This document shows positions 5,212 through 34,638 of a DNA stretch of 64,000 bases, piece after piece. The DNA comes from Larkinella soli. Its GTDB lineage: Bacteria > Bacteroidota > Bacteroidia > Cytophagales > Spirosomataceae. The stretch spans positions 124,001 to 188,000 of the forward strand of contig NZ_QTJY01000008.1 in the NCBI RefSeq assembly GCF_003703975.1. The letters run 5' to 3'. The notes under the pieces were generated by a model. The model did no database searches and had not been told where the DNA came from. It worked only from the letters and a program-made list of their open reading frames with translations. Every line of letters starts with the position of its first letter. Position 1 is the stretch's first letter. Position numbers and translations under genes: made by a program.

Positions 5212-8200
5212 ATGAGAAGAACAGTACCCACCCTCACCGGCATTTCCCGGACGCATGAAACGACCCGAAGGCTCGGCCTTCTGCTGCTGTTGTGGCTCGT
5301 GGCCGCTTCCGGCTTTACGCTCGCCCAGACGCGGGTCCGCTTTAACGTCAACACCGGAAACGGCCGCAAGCCCATCAGCCCGCTCGTCTACGGCACCAAC
5401 GACCACTACCCGCACGCAGCCGCCAAACGGCTCGGCGGCAACCGGATCACCAACTACAACTGGGAGAACAACGCATCGAACGCCGGCTTCGACTGGTACC
5501 ACAACAGCGACAACTACGTGCCCTGGCAGCAGGGCGTGCCCGATGCCGAATACGACACCCCCGGTGCGGCCCTGAAATACTTTCAGCAGCGGTCCCTCGA
5601 CCAGCAGGCCTACTCGCTCGTCACCCTGCCGATGGCCAAATACGTGACGAAGGATAAAAACGGGGCGGTAACCCCCGAACAGGCCGCCCCCTCCAGCCGC
5701 TGGGCCTCCATCCACTACCGCAAACCCTCGCCCTTCACCCTCCAGCCCGACCCGGCCGATACGGCCGTCTACGTCGACGAGCAGATCCATTTTCTGCTCA
5801 ATCAGTTCGGGCGGAGCAATACCGCCCGGGGCGTGAAAGGCTATGCGCTCGACAACGAACCCGGCCTCTGGTTTCACACCCACAGCCGCCTGTGGGGACC
5901 CGGTCACGTCAGCGTCAAGTACCTGATGGACCACTCCATCGCCCTCGCCAGACGGATCAAGGAAATGGACCCCACCGCCGAGGTGTTCGGACCGGCCGCC
6001 TGGGGCGTCACCGAATTTGAGAACCTTCAGTTCGCGCCCGACTGGGACCAGCAGAAAGGCAGCTACCCGACCTTTCTCGACCTGTATCTGGGCCGCATGC
6101 GCGAGTACGAACAGCAGACCGGCACCCGCCTGCTCGACGTGCTGGACGTCCACTGGTATCCGCAGAACAACAACGACGGCGTATCTCCGATGAGCACCTC
6201 CCTCGACCGCGCCACCAACGCGGCCCGGCTGGCGATGACCCGCTCGCTCTGGGACCCGTCCTACATCGAAAACACCTGGATCGGCAACGACCCCTTCAAG
6301 GTGCAGCAGTTTCTGCCCTTCCTTCCGAAAATGAAGCAGCACATCGACCAGTACTACCCCGGCACCAAACTGGCCATCACGGAATACAGCTACATGGGGG
6401 GCGGACACGCGGCCGGCGGGATCGCGCAGGCCGATGCGCTCGGCATCTTCGGCCGGTATGGGGTCTATCTGGCCACCTACTGGGGCGGGGTCACCGACTA
6501 CATCAAGGCGGGTTTCGATCTCTACCGCAACTACGACGGACAGGGCGGCCGCTTCGGTGACACGGCCGTCGAAGCGACGACCGACAACACCGGCACCACC
6601 TCGGTCTACTCGGCCATCCACGGCTCCGACGACTCGAAACTGCACCTGATCGCCCTCAACAAAAGCCAGGACGGCCCCGTTACGGCCACCTTCACCGTCA
6701 GCGGAAACCGGTCGTATAAAAGCGCCCGGGTCTGGGGCTTCGACAACAGCGGAACCGCGCTGAAACCGCTGCCCAATGTCCGGAAAATCGACAACAACAC
6801 CTTCGAGTATACGATCCCGACGCTGACGGCCTGTCACTTCGTGCTTTCCCAGGAAGACCTCGCCGTGCAGCCGTACATCGCCGACCTGAAGATCAGCTCC
6901 GACGTGGGCTACTCGGACGGTACGGCCACGTTCACGGTTACGGCCCGGGTTGAAGACAGCAACAACGACCTCCAGACCGTCACGGCCGACTTCAGCGCCC
7001 TCGGGGGCGGCAACGCCGTGGCCCTTCAGAAAAGTGCAGCCGACCCCAATCTGTACCAGGTGGAATACAAAGTACCGGCCGGCGCTTCCTCGGGCCTGAA
7101 ATCGATCCGGGTCACGGCCCGCGATGCCGCCGGCGATCAGGCCGAATCCAGCGTAACCTACCGCATCATCACCCGAACCGCCACGGCCCTGATCTGGGAC
7201 GGCGACGACCTCCGCAAGGGGGTCGGGGAACCGTTCTACGACCCGGGCGACACCAAAGCGGCCCTGATTAAAATCCAGCGGTCGGAGACGGGGGGCCACG
7301 AAAAGCCGGGCAGTATGTTCATGCACTTTGAACACGACCTGAACCACTACAACACCATGACCTGGCGGTGGGCCGACAACAACAACCCGGCCGACGCCCG
7401 CGACCTGAGCGACTACGGTGCTCTCGAATTTTTCCTCAAAACCAACGCTCCCGACAACAGCGACATCGAGGTCAGCCTGCGCGACGCCACGGCTGCCCTG
7501 ACGGTTTCGACGAGCGTCTTTCTGAAACAGGGAGGCTACCTCGGTTCCATCCGGACCAACGGCTATACCCGGGTCAAAATACCGCTCTCGGCGTTCAAAT
7601 CCGGCTCCGAGATCAACCTGAGCCAGATCTGGCAGATCAACTTTACCTGCAATACCGCCCCGAAAGGCTTCGACGCCTGGGTGGACGACATCCGGGTGCT
7701 GCCCTACTCGAACCCGGTGGTGCAGCCGGTGTTCAGACAGACCACCGCCACCCCCGCTTCAGGCTACGCCAACGGCTCGACGACGGTCCGGATTACGGCC
7801 GAGGTGACCGACCCGGACAACAATCTGAGCAATGTCGTGGCCGACCTGTCCCCGCTGGGCGGATCGAACCGGTTCCCGATGACGAAGGAAAACGGCCTGT
7901 ATGTGGCCACCCTGACCCTGCCCAACGGCCTCTTCCCCGGCGAAAAGCAGATCAACCTCTCGGCCACCGACGCCGACGGCAACCAGGGCGACGGCAAGGT
8001 CCGGTTTACGGTCAACGCCCAGGCCAGCACGACGGTGCTGTGGGACGGTGACGTGGTCAATACCGGGAAAGCCGAAACGCTCAACCAGGTCACCACCTGC
8101 GTGGTCAGCGAGGACGGGGGCCACAACGCGCCCAAAAGCATGAAGATGCACTTCGACATGGCCGACAACGGCTTTGCGGCCGCCGTCTGGGACTGGAACG

Positions 8201-28300: not shown

Positions 28301-31258
28301 TCAGTTGCCGATGCGCAGCAGGGTGCCGATGCCGCGGGGGTCGGGTTTGACGGGCAGTTTGTGCAGTTCGCGGATTTCGACGCTCGGGAAGCCGAACTCG
28401 ACCACCACTTTGCCGTGCAGCCGGTAGAGGCCCATGCCCCGGAGCGGGTGCGTCACCATCACCTGCGGGAAATGGGTGGTGTCGAAATACTGCCCCTCGC
28501 GGTCCACGAAATACCCGAACTGCATGGGCTTGCCGGTTTTGGTCCGGATGCTCTTATAGGTGATCAGGTAGCCGTCGATGACCACCTCCCGCCCCTCACA
28601 GCCCGGCATCTGGCGCGCGACGATGCCTTCCGTTTCGACGGCCAGCCAGTCGAAGGGCGAGCGCAGCATGAAGCCCAGCAGTTCCATCTCGTCGTAGGCG
28701 TCTTCCCACTCGTCCTGCCAGAGGGGCGGCAGGCGGTATTCCATCTCGCCCAGCTCGAACAGATCGCCCGTGGCGACCTGCCCGGCGGTATTGTTGGCCA
28801 GCGCGTGGGCCAGCCACAGCAGTTCCTTCTTGGTCTGCCCGAAACAGCGGAACGCCCCCACCCGGATCAGCACGATCAGCTGCTCCAGCCCCGCCCCCAC
28901 CCGGCGCGTGAAGTCCTCCAGGCTCGTGAACGGCCCGGCCTGCCGCTGTTGCAGCAGCGCCTGCACCGTGCGGTCCTCCAGGCTCTTCACCAGCGACCAC
29001 CCCAGCCAGAGCGTATGACCCTCGATGGTGGTCGGAATCTCGCTGCGGTTGATGTCGGGAGCCTCGACGACGGCCCCCCAGCGCCGGGCTTCGTGGATGT
29101 AAAACTCGGTTTTGTAGAAACCGCCGAAGTTGTTGATGACGGCCGTCATGAATTCCAGCGGAAAATACGTCTTCAGAAACAGGCTCTGGTAACTTTCGAC
29201 GGCGAAGGAGGCCGAGTGCGCCTTGCTGAAGCTGTAACCCGAAAAGCTCCGGATCTGGCGCCAGACCTCGGCGGCCACCTCGTCCTGGTAGCCCTTTTCC
29301 CGGCAGTTGGCGAAGAATTTGGCCTCGATGCGGGCAAACTCCTCCTGCCCCCGGTATTTGCCCGACATGGCCCGGCGCAGGATGTCGGCTTCGGCCAGCG
29401 TCAGGCCGGCGAAGTGGTGTGCCACCTTGATGACGTCCTCCTGGTAGATCATCACCCCGTAGGTGTCGGCCATCAGTTCCTGCATCTTCGGGTGAACCGG
29501 CGTGTAGTCGGCCGGGTTGTGGTGGCGCCGGATGTATTCGGCCATCATGCCGCTGCTGGCGACGCCCGGCCGGATGATCGACGAGGCCGCCACGAGCGTC
29601 AGGTAGTCGGCGCACTGGAGCTTCCAGATCAGCTGGCGCATGGCGGGCGACTCGATGTAGAAGCAGCCCATCGTCTCGTGGGCCTGCAACTGCCGGCGGA
29701 TGTTCTCGTCGCGCTTGAAATCCTGGATGCGGTGGATGTCGATGTCGATCTGCCGGTTTTCGCGCACCCGGTCCACGGCCTCTTTAATGTGCCCCAGCCC
29801 GCGCTGGCTGAGAATGTCCCACTTGGCGAAACCGATCTCTTCGGCCGCGTACATGTCCCACTGGCAGATCGGGAATCCCTTGGGCATCGGTTGCAGGCCC
29901 GTGTAGTGATAGAGCGGTTTTTCAGAGATCAGCACCCCGCCCGCGTGGATCGAAAGGTAGTTGGGAAAGTCTTCAAGTTTGGGTGCAAAATTCAGAATAT
30001 AGCGGGTATACTCCCCCCGGTGCGTGCCGGCCGGATCGGCCACGAGGGCGTCGATCTCGAACTTGGGCAGCCCGAACACCTTGCCCAGCTCGCGGTAGGC
30101 CGCCCGGTCGCGGAAGGTCACGTAGGTCGCCATCAGGCAGACGTGGTGCCGCCCCCAGGTCTTGAAGATGTAGTCGGTGATCTCATCGCGCTCGTCCCAG
30201 CTGAAGTCGATGTCGAAATCGGGCGGGGAGGTGCGGTTCGGGTTGATGAAGCGCTCGAAATAGAGGTCCAGTTCGATGGGATCGACGTCGGTGATGCCCA
30301 TGCAGTAGGCCACGATGCTGTTGGCCCCCGACCCCCGGCCCACGTGGTGGTAGCCGCGCGAGTGGGCGTAGGTGATGATGTTCCAGGTAATCAGGAAGTA
30401 GGCCGTGAAATCCAGTTCCTCGATGACCCGCAGTTCGCGCTCGACCCGCTGCTGCGCTTCGCGGTGGTGTTCACCGTAGCGGTCGCGGAGGCCGTCGGCC
30501 GTCAGCTTGCGGAGCAGGGCCATGTCGTCCTCGCGGCTGGGCGTGTAGAGCTTCCGGTTTTTGGACGAAGCGAAGTCGAAATCGAAGGAGCAGCTTTCCA
30601 GCAGCCGCTGCGTGTTCCGAACCACCGGCTGCCAGTCGCGGAAGGCATGGGCCAGCTGGTCGGGCGGGATCAGGAACTCGTCCTCGCGGACGGTTTCGTG
30701 CTCAACCAACTTGGAAAGCAGGCAGTTATGGGCGATGCAGCGCAGCAGCCGGTGCAGGCTGAAGCCCCGGCGGTCGAGGTAGGTGACAGGTTGCAGAATC
30801 ACCACCTGATGCGGTTTCAGCCGGGCGCGATACCGCCAGAGCTGCGTAATCTCGGAGGGCCGCACCCCCGCCAGTTCGTGGTCGGCCAGGTCGCTGAACT
30901 GATCCAGCCGGGCCAGCGGGTAGATTACCCAGGCATATTGAAACCGGGGTGCCCGGAGCGGAAAGTCCTTTCCTGCCAGCAGGTATTGCGACAGGTGCCG
31001 GTTGATCTCGGCGAAGCCCTCCGGGTTGCGGGCCAGGCAGACGTAGGCCGGCTCCTGGTGGTTGCGGAACTCCACCCCCACCACCGGCCGGATGCCGGCC
31101 TTCGCGCACTCCTTCACAAACTCGAAAACGCCCGAAACCGTGTTGATGTCGGTCAGGGCCAGCGTCCGGATGCCCAGAGCCGCAGCCGCTTCCACCAGCT
31201 TCTCAGGCGGAAGCGTGCCGTAGCGGAGGCTGAAATAGCTGTGGGCGTTCAGATACAT
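28301..31258 (-). CDS. DNA polymerase III alpha-type polymerase (DnaE2/ImuC-like)
   Basis: A 985-aa C-family DNA polymerase, clearly shorter than a replicative DnaE (about 1,160 aa). It has an N-terminal PHP domain (MYLNAHSYFSLRYGTL, LALTDINT), the polymerase core with GRGSGANSIVAYCMG and the catalytic PDFDIDF (about 345-351), a helix-hairpin-helix region, and a C-terminal OB fold (VVIDGYLITYKSIRT). Its small size and place behind a Y-family polymerase and a small protein, opposite a LexA-like regulator, point to the error-prone DnaE2/ImuC class that copies damaged DNA rather than the chromosomal replicase. It is the last gene of the minus-strand operon 32872-28301 (7-bp gap to the previous gene). 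The error-prone role is inference. Confidence 0.9.
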   Translation of the reverse strand: MYLNAHSYFSLRYGTLPPEKLVEAAAALGIRTLALTDINTVSGVFEFVKECAKAGIRPVVGVEFRNHQEPAYVCLARNPEGFAEINRHLSQYLLAGKDFPLRAPRFQYAWVIYPLARLDQFSDLADHELAGVRPSEITQLWRYRARLKPHQVVILQPVTYLDRRGFSLHRLLRCIAHNCLLSKLVEHETVREDEFLIPPDQLAHAFRDWQPVVRNTQRLLESCSFDFDFASSKNRKLYTPSREDDMALLRKLTADGLRDRYGEHHREAQQRVERELRVIEELDFTAYFLITWNIITYAHSRGYHHVGRGSGANSIVAYCMGITDVDPIELDLYFERFINPNRTSPPDFDIDFSWDERDEITDYIFKTWGRHHVCLMATYVTFRDRAAYRELGKVFGLPKFEIDALVADPAGTHRGEYTRYILNFAPKLEDFPNYLSIHAGGVLISEKPLYHYTGLQPMPKGFPICQWDMYAAEEIGFAKWDILSQRGLGHIKEAVDRVRENRQIDIDIHRIQDFKRDENIRRQLQAHETMGCFYIESPAMRQLIWKLQCADYLTLVAASSIIRPGVASSGMMAEYIRRHHNPADYTPVHPKMQELMADTYGVMIYQEDVIKVAHHFAGLTLAEADILRRAMSGKYRGQEEFARIEAKFFANCREKGYQDEVAAEVWRQIRSFSGYSFSKAHSASFAVESYQSLFLKTYFPLEFMTAVINNFGGFYKTEFYIHEARRWGAVVEAPDINRSEIPTTIEGHTLWLGWSLVKSLEDRTVQALLQQRQAGPFTSLEDFTRRVGAGLEQLIVLIRVGAFRCFGQTKKELLWLAHALANNTAGQVATGDLFELGEMEYRLPPLWQDEWEDAYDEMELLGFMLRSPFDWLAVETEGIVARQMPGCEGREVVIDGYLITYKSIRTKTGKPMQFGYFVDREGQYFDTTHFPQVMVTHPLRGMGLYRLHGKVVVEFGFPSVEIRELHKLPVKPDPRGIGTLLRIGN

Positions 31259-31265
31259 AAGCGTG

Positions 31266-31685
31266 TCAGGCGGCCTGTCGGTAGTCGGTGTTGCCCAGCA
31301 GGTGCGGGTGTTCGAAGCGGTTGCCGAGGTGCAGCAGCTTCCGCGAGATCGAGAAGTTGAGCGGGATGGTCATCGGCCGCAGGGCGCCCACCGTCGCCAG
31401 CACGAAGCCGCAGCGCTGGGGCGAGTAGCTGATTTCCCACATCCGGCCCGTCCACTCCACCCAGTCGCATTCGTAGAGGATGGTGCCGGTCCGGTCGTGG
31501 GTGCCGACGGGCAGCATGAGGTGCCAGGGCGAGGTGGGTTCGTAGACGCGCCGTTCGGCGGGATTGGCCAGGTTGACCAGCACCAGGGCGTCTTCCATCC
31601 AGACGCCGACGTGCTGCTGCCCATGCCAGGGCTGCGACAGATAATGCATTTGAATACCGTCCCAGAGTCGTAAGAAGTCGTGCAT
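31266..31685 (-). CDS. Uncharacterised protein between Y-family and C-family polymerases
   Basis: A 139-aa protein encoded between the two polymerases, 11 bp after the Y-family gene and 7 bp before the dnaE-type gene, so clearly in the same operon. No signal peptide, membrane helix, Walker motif or clamp-binding motif is seen. It is rich in Trp and His with conserved-looking blocks MHDFLRLWDGIQMHYLSQPW, ALVLVNLANPAERRVYEP and WEISYSPQRCGFVLATVG; it ends with LLHLGNRFEHPHLLGNTDYR. It does not resemble RecA-like ImuA. I infer a partner or adaptor in translesion synthesis. The frame is open further upstream inside the Y-family gene, but ATG 31685 fits the operon spacing. Confidence 0.75.
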   Translation of the reverse strand: MHDFLRLWDGIQMHYLSQPWHGQQHVGVWMEDALVLVNLANPAERRVYEPTSPWHLMLPVGTHDRTGTILYECDWVEWTGRMWEISYSPQRCGFVLATVGALRPMTIPLNFSISRKLLHLGNRFEHPHLLGNTDYRQAA

Positions 31686-31696
31686 ATGTTTGAAAA

Positions 31697-32872
31697 TCAG
31701 AATCCTCGTTGATGATGACTGGCCCGGATCAGGCGATCTTCCCCGAACCGGCTGCGGACCTGGTCCATCTGGCGGTACAGCTCCGGCAGCGGTTTCTGCA
31801 TCGGCTGCCCCAGCGCGTCGAACAGGCTCAGCTGCTCGGCCCCCCGCACCAGCCGGCCGAAGCTGACGCCCACCAGCCGGATGAGCAGCCGGCGGTCGTA
31901 GAGCCGGTCGAAGGCTTTCCGGGTGGCCGCCAGCAGCAGGTGATCGGAGGCCGTGGCCGGCAGCGTGATCTGGCGCGTGTAGGTCTGAAAGTCGGAATAC
32001 CGGATCTTGACCGTCACCTTCCCGGCACACCAGCCGCCCTGCCGCAGGTCGTAGGCCAGCCCCTCCACCATCCGCTCCAGCGTCAGACGGAGCAGGGTCA
32101 CGTCGGTCGTGTCGGTCTGGAAAGTCATCTCCTTCGACATCGACTTCTGCCGGTGCAGCGGCACGACGGGCGTCGGGTCGATGCCGTTGGCGCGGTCCCA
32201 GAGCAGGAGGCCGGTTTTGCCGAAGGTGCGTTCCATGAGCCGGCGCGGAATCTGCGCCAGCGTGCCGAGCTTCGTGACGCCCATGCAGCGCAGCGTGTGG
32301 GCCATCTTCTCGCCGATACCGGGCAGCTTGCCCACGTCGAGCTTCCAGAGGAACGGCTGCACCTCGGCGGGTAGCACGTGCAGGGCGCCGTCGGGCTTGC
32401 GCTCGTTGGCGGCCACCTTCGACACGGTTTTGTTGACCGACAGCCCCCACGACACCGACAGGCCGGTTTCGCGCACGATCCTCTGCTTCAGCTCCCGCGA
32501 CCATTTTTCGCAGCCGACGAACTTCTCCATCCCCGTCATGTCGACGTAAAACTCGTCGATGCTGGCTTTTTCGGCCACCGGGGCGGCTTCGGTGATAATT
32601 TCGGTCACGGCCTTCGAGTACTGCGTGTAGGCCTGGTAGTCGCCCTTGATGACCATGGCTTCCGGGCAGAGCCGGCGGGCCAGCCGCATGGGCATGGCCG
32701 ACCGGACGCCATACCGCCGGGTTTCGTAGCTGCATCCGGCCACCACGCCCCGATCGCCGGTGCCGCCGATGAGCAGGGGCCGCCCCCGGAGTTCGGGGTT
32801 GCGCAGCACCTCCACCGTCGGAAAGAAGGCGTCGAGATCGAGATGAAGGATATGCCGGTCGGCATCAGTCAT
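31697..32872 (-). CDS. Y-family DNA polymerase (DinB/Pol IV-like)
   Basis: A 391-aa translesion polymerase. Catalytic residues are present: Asp12 in HLDLDAFFPTVE and Asp106-Glu107 in ASIDEFYVD, where Phe replaces the usual Ala. The HhH motif is KLPGIGEKMAHTL, the little-finger domain spans about 240-345, and QLSLF at 347-351 is a textbook beta-clamp binding motif. It would insert bases opposite lesions. It is first in the minus-strand operon with the 139-aa protein and the dnaE-type polymerase, and its start lies 39 bp from the nearest dyad of the intergenic operator array, so damage-inducible control is likely. It is equivalent in place to ImuB but keeps an active site. Confidence 0.95.
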   Translation of the reverse strand: MTDADRHILHLDLDAFFPTVEVLRNPELRGRPLLIGGTGDRGVVAGCSYETRRYGVRSAMPMRLARRLCPEAMVIKGDYQAYTQYSKAVTEIITEAAPVAEKASIDEFYVDMTGMEKFVGCEKWSRELKQRIVRETGLSVSWGLSVNKTVSKVAANERKPDGALHVLPAEVQPFLWKLDVGKLPGIGEKMAHTLRCMGVTKLGTLAQIPRRLMERTFGKTGLLLWDRANGIDPTPVVPLHRQKSMSKEMTFQTDTTDVTLLRLTLERMVEGLAYDLRQGGWCAGKVTVKIRYSDFQTYTRQITLPATASDHLLLAATRKAFDRLYDRRLLIRLVGVSFGRLVRGAEQLSLFDALGQPMQKPLPELYRQMDQVRSRFGEDRLIRASHHQRGF

Positions 32873-32908
32873 GGGCTTACCGCGTTGATCTGGGGGCTAA
32901 ATAACCAA

Positions 32909-33045
32909 TTTGTAATAATAGTTACAAACAGATTGTAATTATTATTACATAATGATGTAACTGATTTTACGATAGATAGTTTTTCAGGAGCCGGAAAGCC
33001 GCTTTTACAGGTAAAAACCGATTTACAATTGTAAACTTTCTTACA
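32909..33045. promoter_or_regulatory. Array of TGTAA-N6-TTACA dyads (candidate damage operator)
   Basis: Four dyads of one design lie in the divergent intergenic region: 32911-32926 (extended to TTTGTAA-N6-TTACAAA at 32909-32928), 32934-32949, 32956-32971 (last base G instead of A) and 33030-33045. The first three start 23 and 22 bp apart, about two helical turns. A 14-bp perfect palindrome TTTACAATTGTAAA (33022-33035) overlaps the fourth, and TTTTAC-AG-GTAAAA lies at 33003-33016. The AT-rich block stands out against GC-rich surroundings. The HTH-S24 protein encoded next to it is the obvious candidate binder. Confidence 0.8.
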
Positions 33046-33075
33046 GAGAGACTTCCTTTTGTAAACCGGAATCCG

Positions 33076-33083
33076 TATCTTTG
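33076..33083 (+). promoter_or_regulatory. -7 promoter element TATCTTTG of the S24 regulator gene
   Basis: Exact TAnnTTTG match ending 18 bp before ATG 33102 and 30 bp after the fourth dyad, so a repressor bound at that dyad would sit just upstream of or on the -33 region. Confidence 0.65.
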
Positions 33084-33101
33084 ATCAAGGAAGCGACTGC
33101 C

Positions 33102-33911
33102 ATGTATATAGCTGAGAATCTGAGTCTTTTACGTTCGTATTACGGTCTGTCCCTCGTCGAGGTGGGCGGGGTGATCGGGGTGACGCACCCGACGCTGTCG
33201 AAATACGAGAAGGGGGAAACGGTTCCGCCGATGGATGTGGCGGCCAAACTGGTGACGCTCTACAAAATCTCGCTGGACATCCTGTTTTTCCAGCCCCTGG
33301 GCAAACTGAGCCGCAAGCAGCTGCAGCAGATGCTGGCCTCGCCCGACCCGCTGTTCCGGGGGCAGTCGTTCCGGGTACGCGAGCTGGTCAGCAGCGTCGG
33401 GCCGGACAATGAGGAGAACATCGAACTGGTGCCGGTGAAGGCCGCCATGGGCTACTGCCAGGGCGGTTTCGAAGACGCCGGTTTCATCGCCGAACTGCCC
33501 AGCTTCCGGCTGCCGCTGCCGTTTATCTCCCAAAACCGCAAATACCGGCTGTTTCCGGCGGGCGGGGAGTCGATGCTGCCCATCCCGGCCAACGCCTACG
33601 TGCTGGGCGAATACGTGCAGGACTGGTACGGCGTCAAAGACGGTACGGGCTGCGTGGTGGTGAGCCACGAGGGCATCGTCGTCAAGAAGGTCTACAACGA
33701 ACTGGCGACCCACCGGCGGCTGATGCTGCACTCCCTCAACCCGGCCTACCAGCCCTACGCGCTGCCGGCCGAGCAGTTGCAGGAACTCTGGCGGTATGTC
33801 CTGTACATGTCGGCGGACTTTCCGGATTCGGAACCGACGCTGAGCACCATTCTGGATGAATTACGCAAGCTGAATGCCGGTCAGGAAAAACTCTTACAAC
33901 AGGCTCAATAG
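33102..33911 (+). CDS. LexA-like HTH (XRE)-S24 peptidase regulator
   Basis: A 269-aa repressor-like protein. Residues 1-65 form an XRE helix-turn-helix (VEVGGVIGVTHPTLSKYEKGETVPP); 105-225 form an S24 domain with catalytic Ser157 in GGESMLP and Lys195/Lys196 in GIVVKKVY, 38 residues apart as in LexA. The expected self-cleavage site falls in KAAMGYCQGG (about 113-122); a plain Ala-Gly bond is not present, though Ala115-Met-Gly117 is at the right distance. ATG 33102 is chosen; the open frame starts slightly earlier at TTG 33081, inside the -7 box. It is divergent from the polymerase operon, next to the dyad array, and one base upstream of the SRAP gene. LexA-like function is a strong inference, not shown. 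Confidence 0.88.
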   Translation: MYIAENLSLLRSYYGLSLVEVGGVIGVTHPTLSKYEKGETVPPMDVAAKLVTLYKISLDILFFQPLGKLSRKQLQQMLASPDPLFRGQSFRVRELVSSVGPDNEENIELVPVKAAMGYCQGGFEDAGFIAELPSFRLPLPFISQNRKYRLFPAGGESMLPIPANAYVLGEYVQDWYGVKDGTGCVVVSHEGIVVKKVYNELATHRRLMLHSLNPAYQPYALPAEQLQELWRYVLYMSADFPDSEPTLSTILDELRKLNAGQEKLLQQAQ

Positions 33912-33912
33912 C

Positions 33913-34638
33913 ATGTGTTACCACAAAAATCTCAACGTAAGCCCGCAGGAACTCCAGGAACGCTACGACGCGGACCTTCCCCCGGGCGCCGACTTCGGTC
34001 CGATCTTTCACGCCAGCGCCTTCGCCTTCCCGCACTGGCCCATTCTGACCCACCAGCAGCCGGGCCAGTTCCGCATGCTCCAGTGGGGCCTGATTCCGCA
34101 CTGGGTCCGGGGCCGCGACCAGGCCGAGGAACTGAAAGCCCGCACGCTGAACGCCCAGTCGGAGACCATCTTCGAAAAACCGTCGTTCCGCGGGGCGGCC
34201 CAGGGCGGCAAACGCTGCCTGATTCCGGTTACCGGCTTTTTCGAGTGGTTTACGCAGAAGAGTAAGAAATACCCGTTTTATATCCATCCCCGCTCGCAGA
34301 AGATCGTGTCGATCGCCGGGCTATGGGACGAGTGGACCGACCGCGACACCGGTGAGGTGCTCCAGACCTACACCCTGCTGACGACCGAAGCCAACCCCCT
34401 GCTGGCAAAGATCCACAACACCAAACGGCGTATGCCGGTGCTGCTGACGACCGAAGCCGAAAAAGCCTGGCTGCGCAACGACCTCAGCGAGAAGGAGACA
34501 CTGGCGATCTGCGCCGACCCGTACCCCGACCGCGAACTGGAAAGCTACACGATCACGAAGCGCATCACCGCCCGGGGTGAACCGACCGACGTGCCCGAAG
34601 TACTCGAACCGGCCGCGTATCCCGAGATGAAATTTTAA
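33913..34638 (+). CDS. SOS response-associated peptidase (SRAP; YedK/HMCES-like)
   Basis: A 241-aa SRAP protein. In this family the Met is removed and Cys2 forms a thiazolidine crosslink with abasic sites in single-stranded DNA, shielding them during replication. Key residues are all visible: Cys2, Asn80 in TLNAQSETIF, Glu111 in GFFEW and His168 in KIHNTKRRMPV. The start codon lies one base after the stop of the S24 regulator, so the two are co-transcribed. The link to polymerase genes across the operator region supports a damage-tolerance unit. A strong terminator follows. Confidence 0.96.
   Translation: MCYHKNLNVSPQELQERYDADLPPGADFGPIFHASAFAFPHWPILTHQQPGQFRMLQWGLIPHWVRGRDQAEELKARTLNAQSETIFEKPSFRGAAQGGKRCLIPVTGFFEWFTQKSKKYPFYIHPRSQKIVSIAGLWDEWTDRDTGEVLQTYTLLTTEANPLLAKIHNTKRRMPVLLTTEAEKAWLRNDLSEKETLAICADPYPDRELESYTITKRITARGEPTDVPEVLEPAAYPEMKF

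Follow-up and report, generated by a model that had tools for sequence, protein, structure and literature searches.

The locus analysed here raises the question of what binds a group of closely spaced inverted repeats lying between two divergent operons, one for DNA polymerases and one for an S24-type repressor, and what such binding would accomplish. In the account developed below, a repressor of the self-cutting type probably sits on evenly spaced sites and holds error-prone polymerases off until DNA is damaged. The window is the whole stretch of 64,000 nucleotides, and its genome is referred to as G000; G001 to G004 and G008 are the other members of the genus with the locus, and G033 represents another genus of the family. 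Base composition (GC), the relatives found and the way the families cluster make the source probably a bacterium of the Cytophagales.

An array of dyads between divergent operons

A scan of the window locates the dyad TGTAA-N6-TTACA exactly at three positions and, with a single mismatch (TTACG), at a fourth, all within the 229-bp intergenic region (32873-33101) that separates the start of a Y-family polymerase gene, PolY (ATG 32872, minus strand), from that of the S24 gene (ATG 33102). The features of the locus are as follows.

28301..31258, minus strand: DnaE-type DNA polymerase III alpha, 985 aa, 3′ of PolY and the small ORF on the same strand
31266..31685, minus strand: small ORF, 139 aa, a relative of the YopX-like protein divergent from the contig-3 S24 paralog
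31697..32872, minus strand: PolY, a DNA polymerase IV-like Y-family polymerase with intact DLDAFF and SIDEF motifs
32911..32926, unstranded: dyad 1, TGTAATAATAGTTACA, nearest the polymerase operon; full arms TTTGTAA-N6-TTACAAA
32925..32932, minus strand: candidate -7 box of the polymerase operon, TCTGTTTG, one mismatch to TAnnTTTG
32934..32949, unstranded: dyad 2, TGTAATTATTATTACA, 23 bp from dyad 1, forming the tandem pair scored by the 23-bp pair statistic
32956..32971, unstranded: dyad 3, TGTAACTGATTTTACG, with one mismatch, 22 bp from dyad 2
33022..33035, unstranded: perfect 14-bp palindrome, TTTACAATTGTAAA, overlapping dyad 4
33030..33045, unstranded: dyad 4, TGTAAACTTTCTTACA, toward the S24 gene; G001 has its counterpart at -81, G002 and G003 at -82
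33076..33083, plus strand: candidate -7 box of the S24 operon, TATCTTTG, starting 26 bp before the ATG
33102..33911, plus strand: S24 repressor, 269 aa, with a predicted CI/DdrO-type HTH and LexA-type C-terminal domain, Met116-Gly117 at the cleavage position, Ser157 and Lys195
33913..34638, plus strand: SRAP protein, beginning Met-Cys, one base past the S24 stop codon

Dyad 1 begins 39 bp from the PolY start and dyad 4 ends 57 bp from the S24 start. The intergenic region has a GC content of 37%, against about 61% for the window. Among 5000 dinucleotide shuffles of this region, one exact dyad appeared in 3 and at least two in none, compared with the three observed, and TGTAA-TTACA at other spacers from 3 to 9 has no match across the window. 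A de novo search for repeated dyads recovers TGTAA arms of width 16 at -191, -168, -146 and -72 from the S24 ATG (0 of 60 shuffles as good), together with an additional weak dyad at -90. The earlier note on this DNA had described these sites, their 22-23 bp spacing, an AT-rich block in GC-rich DNA and a position between a divergent polymerase operon and an S24/SRAP operon; it was right on each point, its coordinates agreeing with the scan and with the gene starts and the repetition lying beyond chance in the shuffles.

The palindrome TTTACAATTGTAAA, absent from that note's list, is kept in four of the five distinct genus regions (in two of them as TTTACATTTGTAAA) and lost in G001, so that it persists in genus members whose dyads differ. 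It may be a candidate site for a second regulator.

The SRAP gene begins one base after the S24 stop codon and is therefore likely to form a single operon with it. On the opposite strand, the best-scoring models for PolY are those of Pol IV. ImuB, the Y-family member of the imuA-imuB-dnaE2 mutasome, lacks the polymerase catalytic residues, and the intact catalytic motifs of PolY, Pol IV-like rather than ImuB-like, together with the failure to find a match to ImuA among the five proteins searched, speak against that assignment. The term "mutasome-like operon" proposed previously calls for caution; the locus pairs a Pol IV-like polymerase with DnaE.

Candidate promoters were called with TAnnTTTG, which we take to be the -7 consensus. 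The box of the polymerase operon is exact at the same place in G001 (TACATTTG) and G002 (TATATTTG). Given the place of this box, between the first two dyads, dyads 1 to 3 would overlie the polymerase promoter, and dyad 4 lies directly upstream of the candidate S24 promoter.

Architecture of the S24 repressor

The N-terminus of the repressor matches PF01381 (HTH_3) above the cut-off (E=9e-9), rather than the LexA winged helix PF01726, for which there is no match at E up to 0.001. The Pfam S24 match falls below its gathering cut-off (20.6 vs 23.3 bits). A predicted structure (mean pLDDT 74.6, pTM 0.50, with low confidence around residues 87-100 and 120-133) was used for a structure search, in which the C-terminal domain matches LexA with E down to 6.6e-7 and the HTH matches DdrO (6rnz, 6rnx, 6jq1) and phage repressors, a lambda-186 hybrid repressor also ranking high. 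The predicted fold is that of a CI/DdrO-type HTH joined to a LexA-type C-terminal domain.

Gly117, Ser157 and Lys195 are present without exception in the 20 proteins aligned, which suggests that the peptidase remains in use. The residue preceding the cleavage glycine is Met in all seven aligned copies from the genus; G033 has Lys at this place, and the 12 others have Ala. The window HTH also deviates at three nearly invariant positions (Q18 to L, A22 to G and R29 to H).

A separate relative of non-canonical LexA is present in all nine genus genomes (L063:3547-4629 on contig 1 of G000, and L189-L197). In this protein the cleavage glycine is replaced by Asp or Glu, the catalytic serine by Phe or Tyr and the lysine by Arg, and a 26-residue stretch of the HTH is identical in all nine genomes. 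It is a probable permanently uncleavable repressor, judging from these substitutions.

Relationship to known repressors

Similar comparisons can be drawn with well-known regulators. Lambda CI, a CI-type HTH joined to an S24 domain, occupies, between divergent promoters, a row of three operators set about 23-24 bp from one another. The window resembles OR and OL in its repressor, of the same two-domain type, and in the 23- and 22-bp separations of dyads 1 to 3, about two helical turns, a spacing that is in excess among relatives and not among control promoters. It differs in that the locus is chromosomal, DNA polymerase genes rather than phage genes face the operon of the repressor itself, the dyads are 16 bp long, and cooperativity would have to follow from spacing and fold. 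Canonical LexA carries a winged-helix HTH and, in E. coli, recognizes CTGT-N8-ACAG. The window shares with it the modelled fold of the S24 C-terminal domain and target genes of the damage type, whereas its HTH is not a winged helix, its dyad is not that motif and its recA has no such site. DdrO, the damage-response repressor of Deinococcus, lacks an S24 domain and depends on a separate protease for its cleavage; the HTH folds are close, but the window repressor has an S24 domain of its own.

The nearest counterpart is the non-canonical LexA of Bacteroidetes, described by Sanchez-Osuna et al. (2021; PMC8565304) with two motifs and diverged palindromes. In that description, the family has a CI-type HTH, an S24 domain with Ser-Lys and palindromic sites at its own promoter, and its targets include an SOS-associated peptidase as well as a DinB polymerase, which DnaE often accompanies; all of these are paralleled in the window, which has a CI/HTH_3 N-terminus, an S24-type C-terminus with Ser-Lys and palindromes beside an error-prone polymerase. 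In E. anophelis, where the polymerase gene likewise lies opposite, the regulator binds a diverged palindrome in its own promoter (TTAC-AAATT-GTAA was tested), and mitomycin C induces both the regulator and the polymerase gene (PMC8565304). The same account leaves Cytophagaceae homologs unassigned, and a word search of its main text returns no instance of "cooperativ".

The window departs from this family in its dyad, TGTAA-N6-TTACA in a four-site array, in its Met116-Gly117 bond, where Ala-Gly (or Cys-Gly) is expected, and in recA, the one gene on which membership in such a regulon was assessed, which has no such site. Neither GGA-N5-TCC nor CTAA-N5-TTAG occurs in the window's intergenic region. 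Genome-wide, CTAA-N5-TTAG has 9 sites, none on the window's contig, against 92 for its mirror control, and on these counts was rejected as the SOS box of this genome. As the repressor has no Ala-Gly bond and its promoter neither of the published motifs, the system is better described as working like non-canonical LexA than as a plain member; because the family, its motifs and its induction are already described (PMC8565304), it is a diverged relative and not a categorically new system.

Retention of the array within the genus and family

The layout is kept with other letters (TGTCA-N7) in three of the five other genus members that carry the locus. In G001, TGTCA arms of width 17 lie at -201, -178, -155 and -81 from the S24 ATG, and in G002 and G003, whose regions are identical, at -201, -178 and -82 (1 of 60 shuffles as good in each case), with a degenerate copy at -155 discerned by eye. 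At the position orthologous to dyad 1, G001 has TGTCA-N7-TTACA and G002/G003 have TGTCA-N7-TGACA. The number, order and spacing of the sites are therefore conserved between these genomes and the window, while one arm base and one spacer base have changed, the window dyad being one base shorter. Conservation of the dyads in orthologous regions had been put forward as a check on the original proposal; the exact dyads are not conserved, and what is retained, in three relatives, is the array.

The two remaining carriers of the locus are exceptions. In G004 the array is not kept, its best repeated dyad, with CAAGC arms, being equalled by 18 of 60 shuffles in the de novo search; in the pair statistic, 0 of 40 shuffles equal these arms at their 23-bp separation. 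G008 has TGTAA-N5-TTACA at -106 and TGTAA-N5-TGACA at -71 (2 of 60 shuffles), and no triple array. Outside the genus, G033 has TGTGC arms at -168, -146 and -49 (0 of 60), and metagenome-assembled genomes labelled Bacteroidetes or Bacteroidales (L007, L009, L016 and L017) have pairs with GATTA arms 23 bp apart (1 to 3 of 60). The same de novo search beats shuffles in other frames at L018 and L021 (1 and 0 of 60) and does not beat them at L039, L042, L049, L060, L027, L013 or L025.

The repressor and the polymerase are also inherited together. The S24 protein (E <= 1e-40) and PolY (73-74% identity) co-occur in the same six of nine genus genomes and are both missing from the other three, where just distant relatives of either protein occur.

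A 23-bp spacing among S24 relatives

At a threshold of 1e-40, the S24 profile matches 295 of 390 genomes of the order, and 88 loci plus 40 further stretches were examined for the best matching pair of dyads at separations of 16 to 40 bp, ties being shared. The first set of 88 upstream regions, 59 after redundant and short ones were dropped, includes the regions that prompted the idea; the favoured separation is 23 bp in 21.1 of the 59 regions, where shuffles predict 2.16, with 3.5 against 2.5 at 22 bp and 3.6 against 2.3 at 24 bp. The second set consists of 40 regions picked from listed places with their sequence unseen. After 13 redundant regions were dropped, the best pair lies at 23 bp in 5.3 of 27, against 0.93 expected. 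Among 125 non-redundant control promoters the corresponding figure is 3.95, where an even share is about 5 and the highest bin, at 24 bp, holds 9.5. Where PolY is divergent beside the S24 gene (16 non-redundant regions), a separation of 22-24 bp is the sole best in 12 and best or joint best in 15.

Many of the half-sites share a common frame, opening with TTG or ATG and differing inside (TTGTAA, ATGTCA, TTGTGCT, TTGATTA, TTGACAC, TTGATAC), and distant relatives have TGTGCT or GATTA arms. The spacing is confined to part of the family, since relatives with an IKRSLxGAYEE helix in the second set show 23 bp in only one of nine, as a joint best; three of them have a CTAA-N5-TTAG site. Among the papers listed in literature searches, none mentions a 23-bp tandem rule for this repressor family in its title or abstract opening.

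Loci labelled Marinilabilia, Geofilum and Bacteroidales (L005-L025) contain this type of S24 protein, and in eight metagenome-derived loci (L007, L009, L013, L016, L017, L018, L021 and L025) PolY is divergent beside it. The two groups of Sanchez-Osuna et al. are, by contrast, reported in that paper to be absent from the order Bacteroidales (PMC8565304).

Covariation of operator and recognition helix

In a confident set of 22 loci with the best pair at 22-24 bp and a shuffle p <= 0.1, similarity of half-sites correlates with similarity of recognition helices (rho 0.43; 1 of 2000 permutations as high), and the partial correlation on the rest of the HTH is 0.29 (10 of 2000). The inclusive set takes in every region, 51 of 86, whose best or joint-best separation is 22-24 bp, many of these being chance pairs, and gives a rho of 0.20 (0 of 2000) and a partial of 0.11 (38 of 2000). 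When L037 and the window's genus are removed (n=46), these become 0.19 (3 of 2000) and 0.06 (307 of 2000), the latter not significant. A hand-picked, incomplete set of 35 loci had given 0.45; the rule-based set of 51 provides the figure to trust for inclusive covariation. Covariation is thus clear in the confident set, and its independence from kinship is not supported in the noisy one. That the adjacent S24 protein is the binder of the array is supported, from these sequence comparisons, but not settled.

Sites elsewhere in the genome

The whole 6.92-Mb genome contains five exact dyads, the three of the array and two others, 449 bp apart, in a prophage-like region of contig 12. If up to one mismatch is tolerated, TGTAA-N6-TTACA reaches 73 sites and its mirror pattern 94; for TTGTAA-N6-TTACAA with up to two mismatches the counts are 151 and, for the control, 146. 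Weak sites therefore carry no signal, and a genome-wide regulon based on motif counts was rejected on the same ground. None of the five sites outside the window that match the longer pattern with one mismatch precedes, by eye, a recognisable repair gene. In the 220 bp upstream of recA, no dyad exceeds 8 of 10 letters in any of the nine genus genomes, the best TGTAA-N6-TTACA match being 7 in eight genomes and 8 in one, with TGTCA dyads at 6 or 7. The dyad is thus not enriched genome-wide, and the "SOS-like operator of a Bacteroidota damage regulon" of the earlier note stands in part: an operator of the adjacent S24 protein is most likely, and a wide regulon is not supported, as recA has no such site and the only other exact sites lie in a prophage-like region. 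The sequence data fit a local switch better than a wide regulon.

The contig-12 sites (L061:5249-5268 and 5698-5717) are the only other exact TTTGTAA-N6-TTACAAA in the genome. They flank a non-S24 HTH gene in what resembles a prophage control region, with a Holliday resolvase nearby and an anti-repressor about 34 kb on, and an S24 profile search found no S24 gene on the contig. They may be sites for the host repressor or the phage's own. The prophage HTH protein has a match in 8 of 121 family genomes, the window's genome included, and among nine loci read upstream, exact dyads occur in the window's genome only (one-mismatch sites in three others). It was therefore rejected as a conserved TGTAA binder.

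On contig 3 (L062) there is an S24 paralog, 65% identical, whose divergent neighbour is a YopX-like gene akin to the polymerase operon's small ORF. The DNA upstream of the paralog contains a direct repeat with 23-bp spacing (by eye) and, by the pair statistic, no palindromic 23-bp pair. With no exact site there, and none read in the 500 bp upstream, the paralog was set aside as a second user of the dyad.

A proposed switch and its alternatives

As far as sequence can indicate, the array most likely serves the adjacent S24 repressor as its operator. Dimers of the repressor would bind the 16-bp dyads, and dyads 1, 2 and 3, about two helical turns apart, would fill cooperatively in the manner of lambda CI at OR, covering the polymerase promoter. 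Dyad 4, placed immediately before the promoter of the repressor and SRAP genes, would govern that operon, most likely by autorepression, although activation or looping is also conceivable. Upon DNA damage, the S24 domain would cut itself with the help of RecA, and the Pol IV-like polymerase, the DnaE polymerase, SRAP and the repressor would be released together. As a whole, a lambda-OR-like, damage-released S24 switch dedicated to mutagenic polymerases seems to us a likely explanation, held with real reservations. It draws on the dyads, their recurrence in three genus members, the 23-bp pair excess, co-inheritance with the polymerase and the protein architecture. Counted against it are the Met-Gly bond, the sub-threshold Pfam S24 match, the HTH departures, the weak inclusive covariation, recA without a dyad, the exceptions G004 and G008, the IKRSLxGAYEE relatives and the contig-3 paralog.

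Alternatively, the S24 repressor might bind the array but no longer sense damage, being relieved instead by another signal such as a ligand, an antirepressor or slow self-cleavage. The Met found before the cleavage glycine throughout the genus, with Lys in G033 and Ala elsewhere, speaks for such a loss, but the invariant Gly, Ser and Lys suggest a peptidase still in use and the genes controlled are of the DNA-damage kind, leaving this unlikely, if worth serious attention. It is less probable still that the TGTAA dyads are recognized by another regulator, for which an HTH repressor of phage type is one candidate and which would have the S24 gene as just one of its targets. The prophage-like location of the other exact full dyads beside a non-S24 HTH gene, the constancy of TTTACAATTGTAAA while the dyads change and the weak covariation in the inclusive set would all suit such a regulator; tandem 23-bp dyads nevertheless precede S24 genes in many families, and covariation holds in the confident set. 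Finally, the dyads might play no part as operators and reflect nothing more than AT-rich promoters, with TTTG and TAnnTTTG elements on both strands. The arms do contain TTTG, and the candidate -7 box overlaps dyad 1. We nevertheless consider this highly improbable, given that none of the 5000 composition-matched shuffles has two exact dyads, that the control promoters show no 23-bp excess and that promoter elements, from their consensus, would space near 27 rather than 23.

The damage-released switch may also be placed in a broader reading, which is possible although we would not call it likely. A branch of SOS-type repressors in Bacteroidota would keep a lambda-OR-like 23-bp geometry, often with outer TTG...CAA, as its invariant, while the inner letters and the recognition helix rewire fast, even within a genus. 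In this genus the switch would have been reduced to a single mutagenesis locus once every cleavage residue had disappeared from the ancestral non-canonical LexA, turning that protein into a permanent DNA binder, and the prophage may have borrowed the operator. The analysis provides a diverged non-canonical LexA homolog with a likely operator, a search rule independent of letters (two dyads 23 bp apart before S24 genes) and a natural series for the co-change of repressor and operator under constant geometry. It also suggests that control of mutagenic polymerases can turn into a local switch uncoupled from recA.

Additional loci in the genome

A second divergent pair of an S24 gene and a Y-family polymerase-like gene is found on contig 17 of G000 (L064:2469-4397), where the IMS domain match of the polymerase-like protein spans its second half only. 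Seven other genus members have a Y-family frame of 428-462 codons near a similar S24 match. Upstream of recA on contig 2 of G000 (L074) is the palindrome TTTCCAA-N8-TTGGAAA, and relatives have similar sequences (TTTACAA, TTGCAA) at the same place, as judged by eye.
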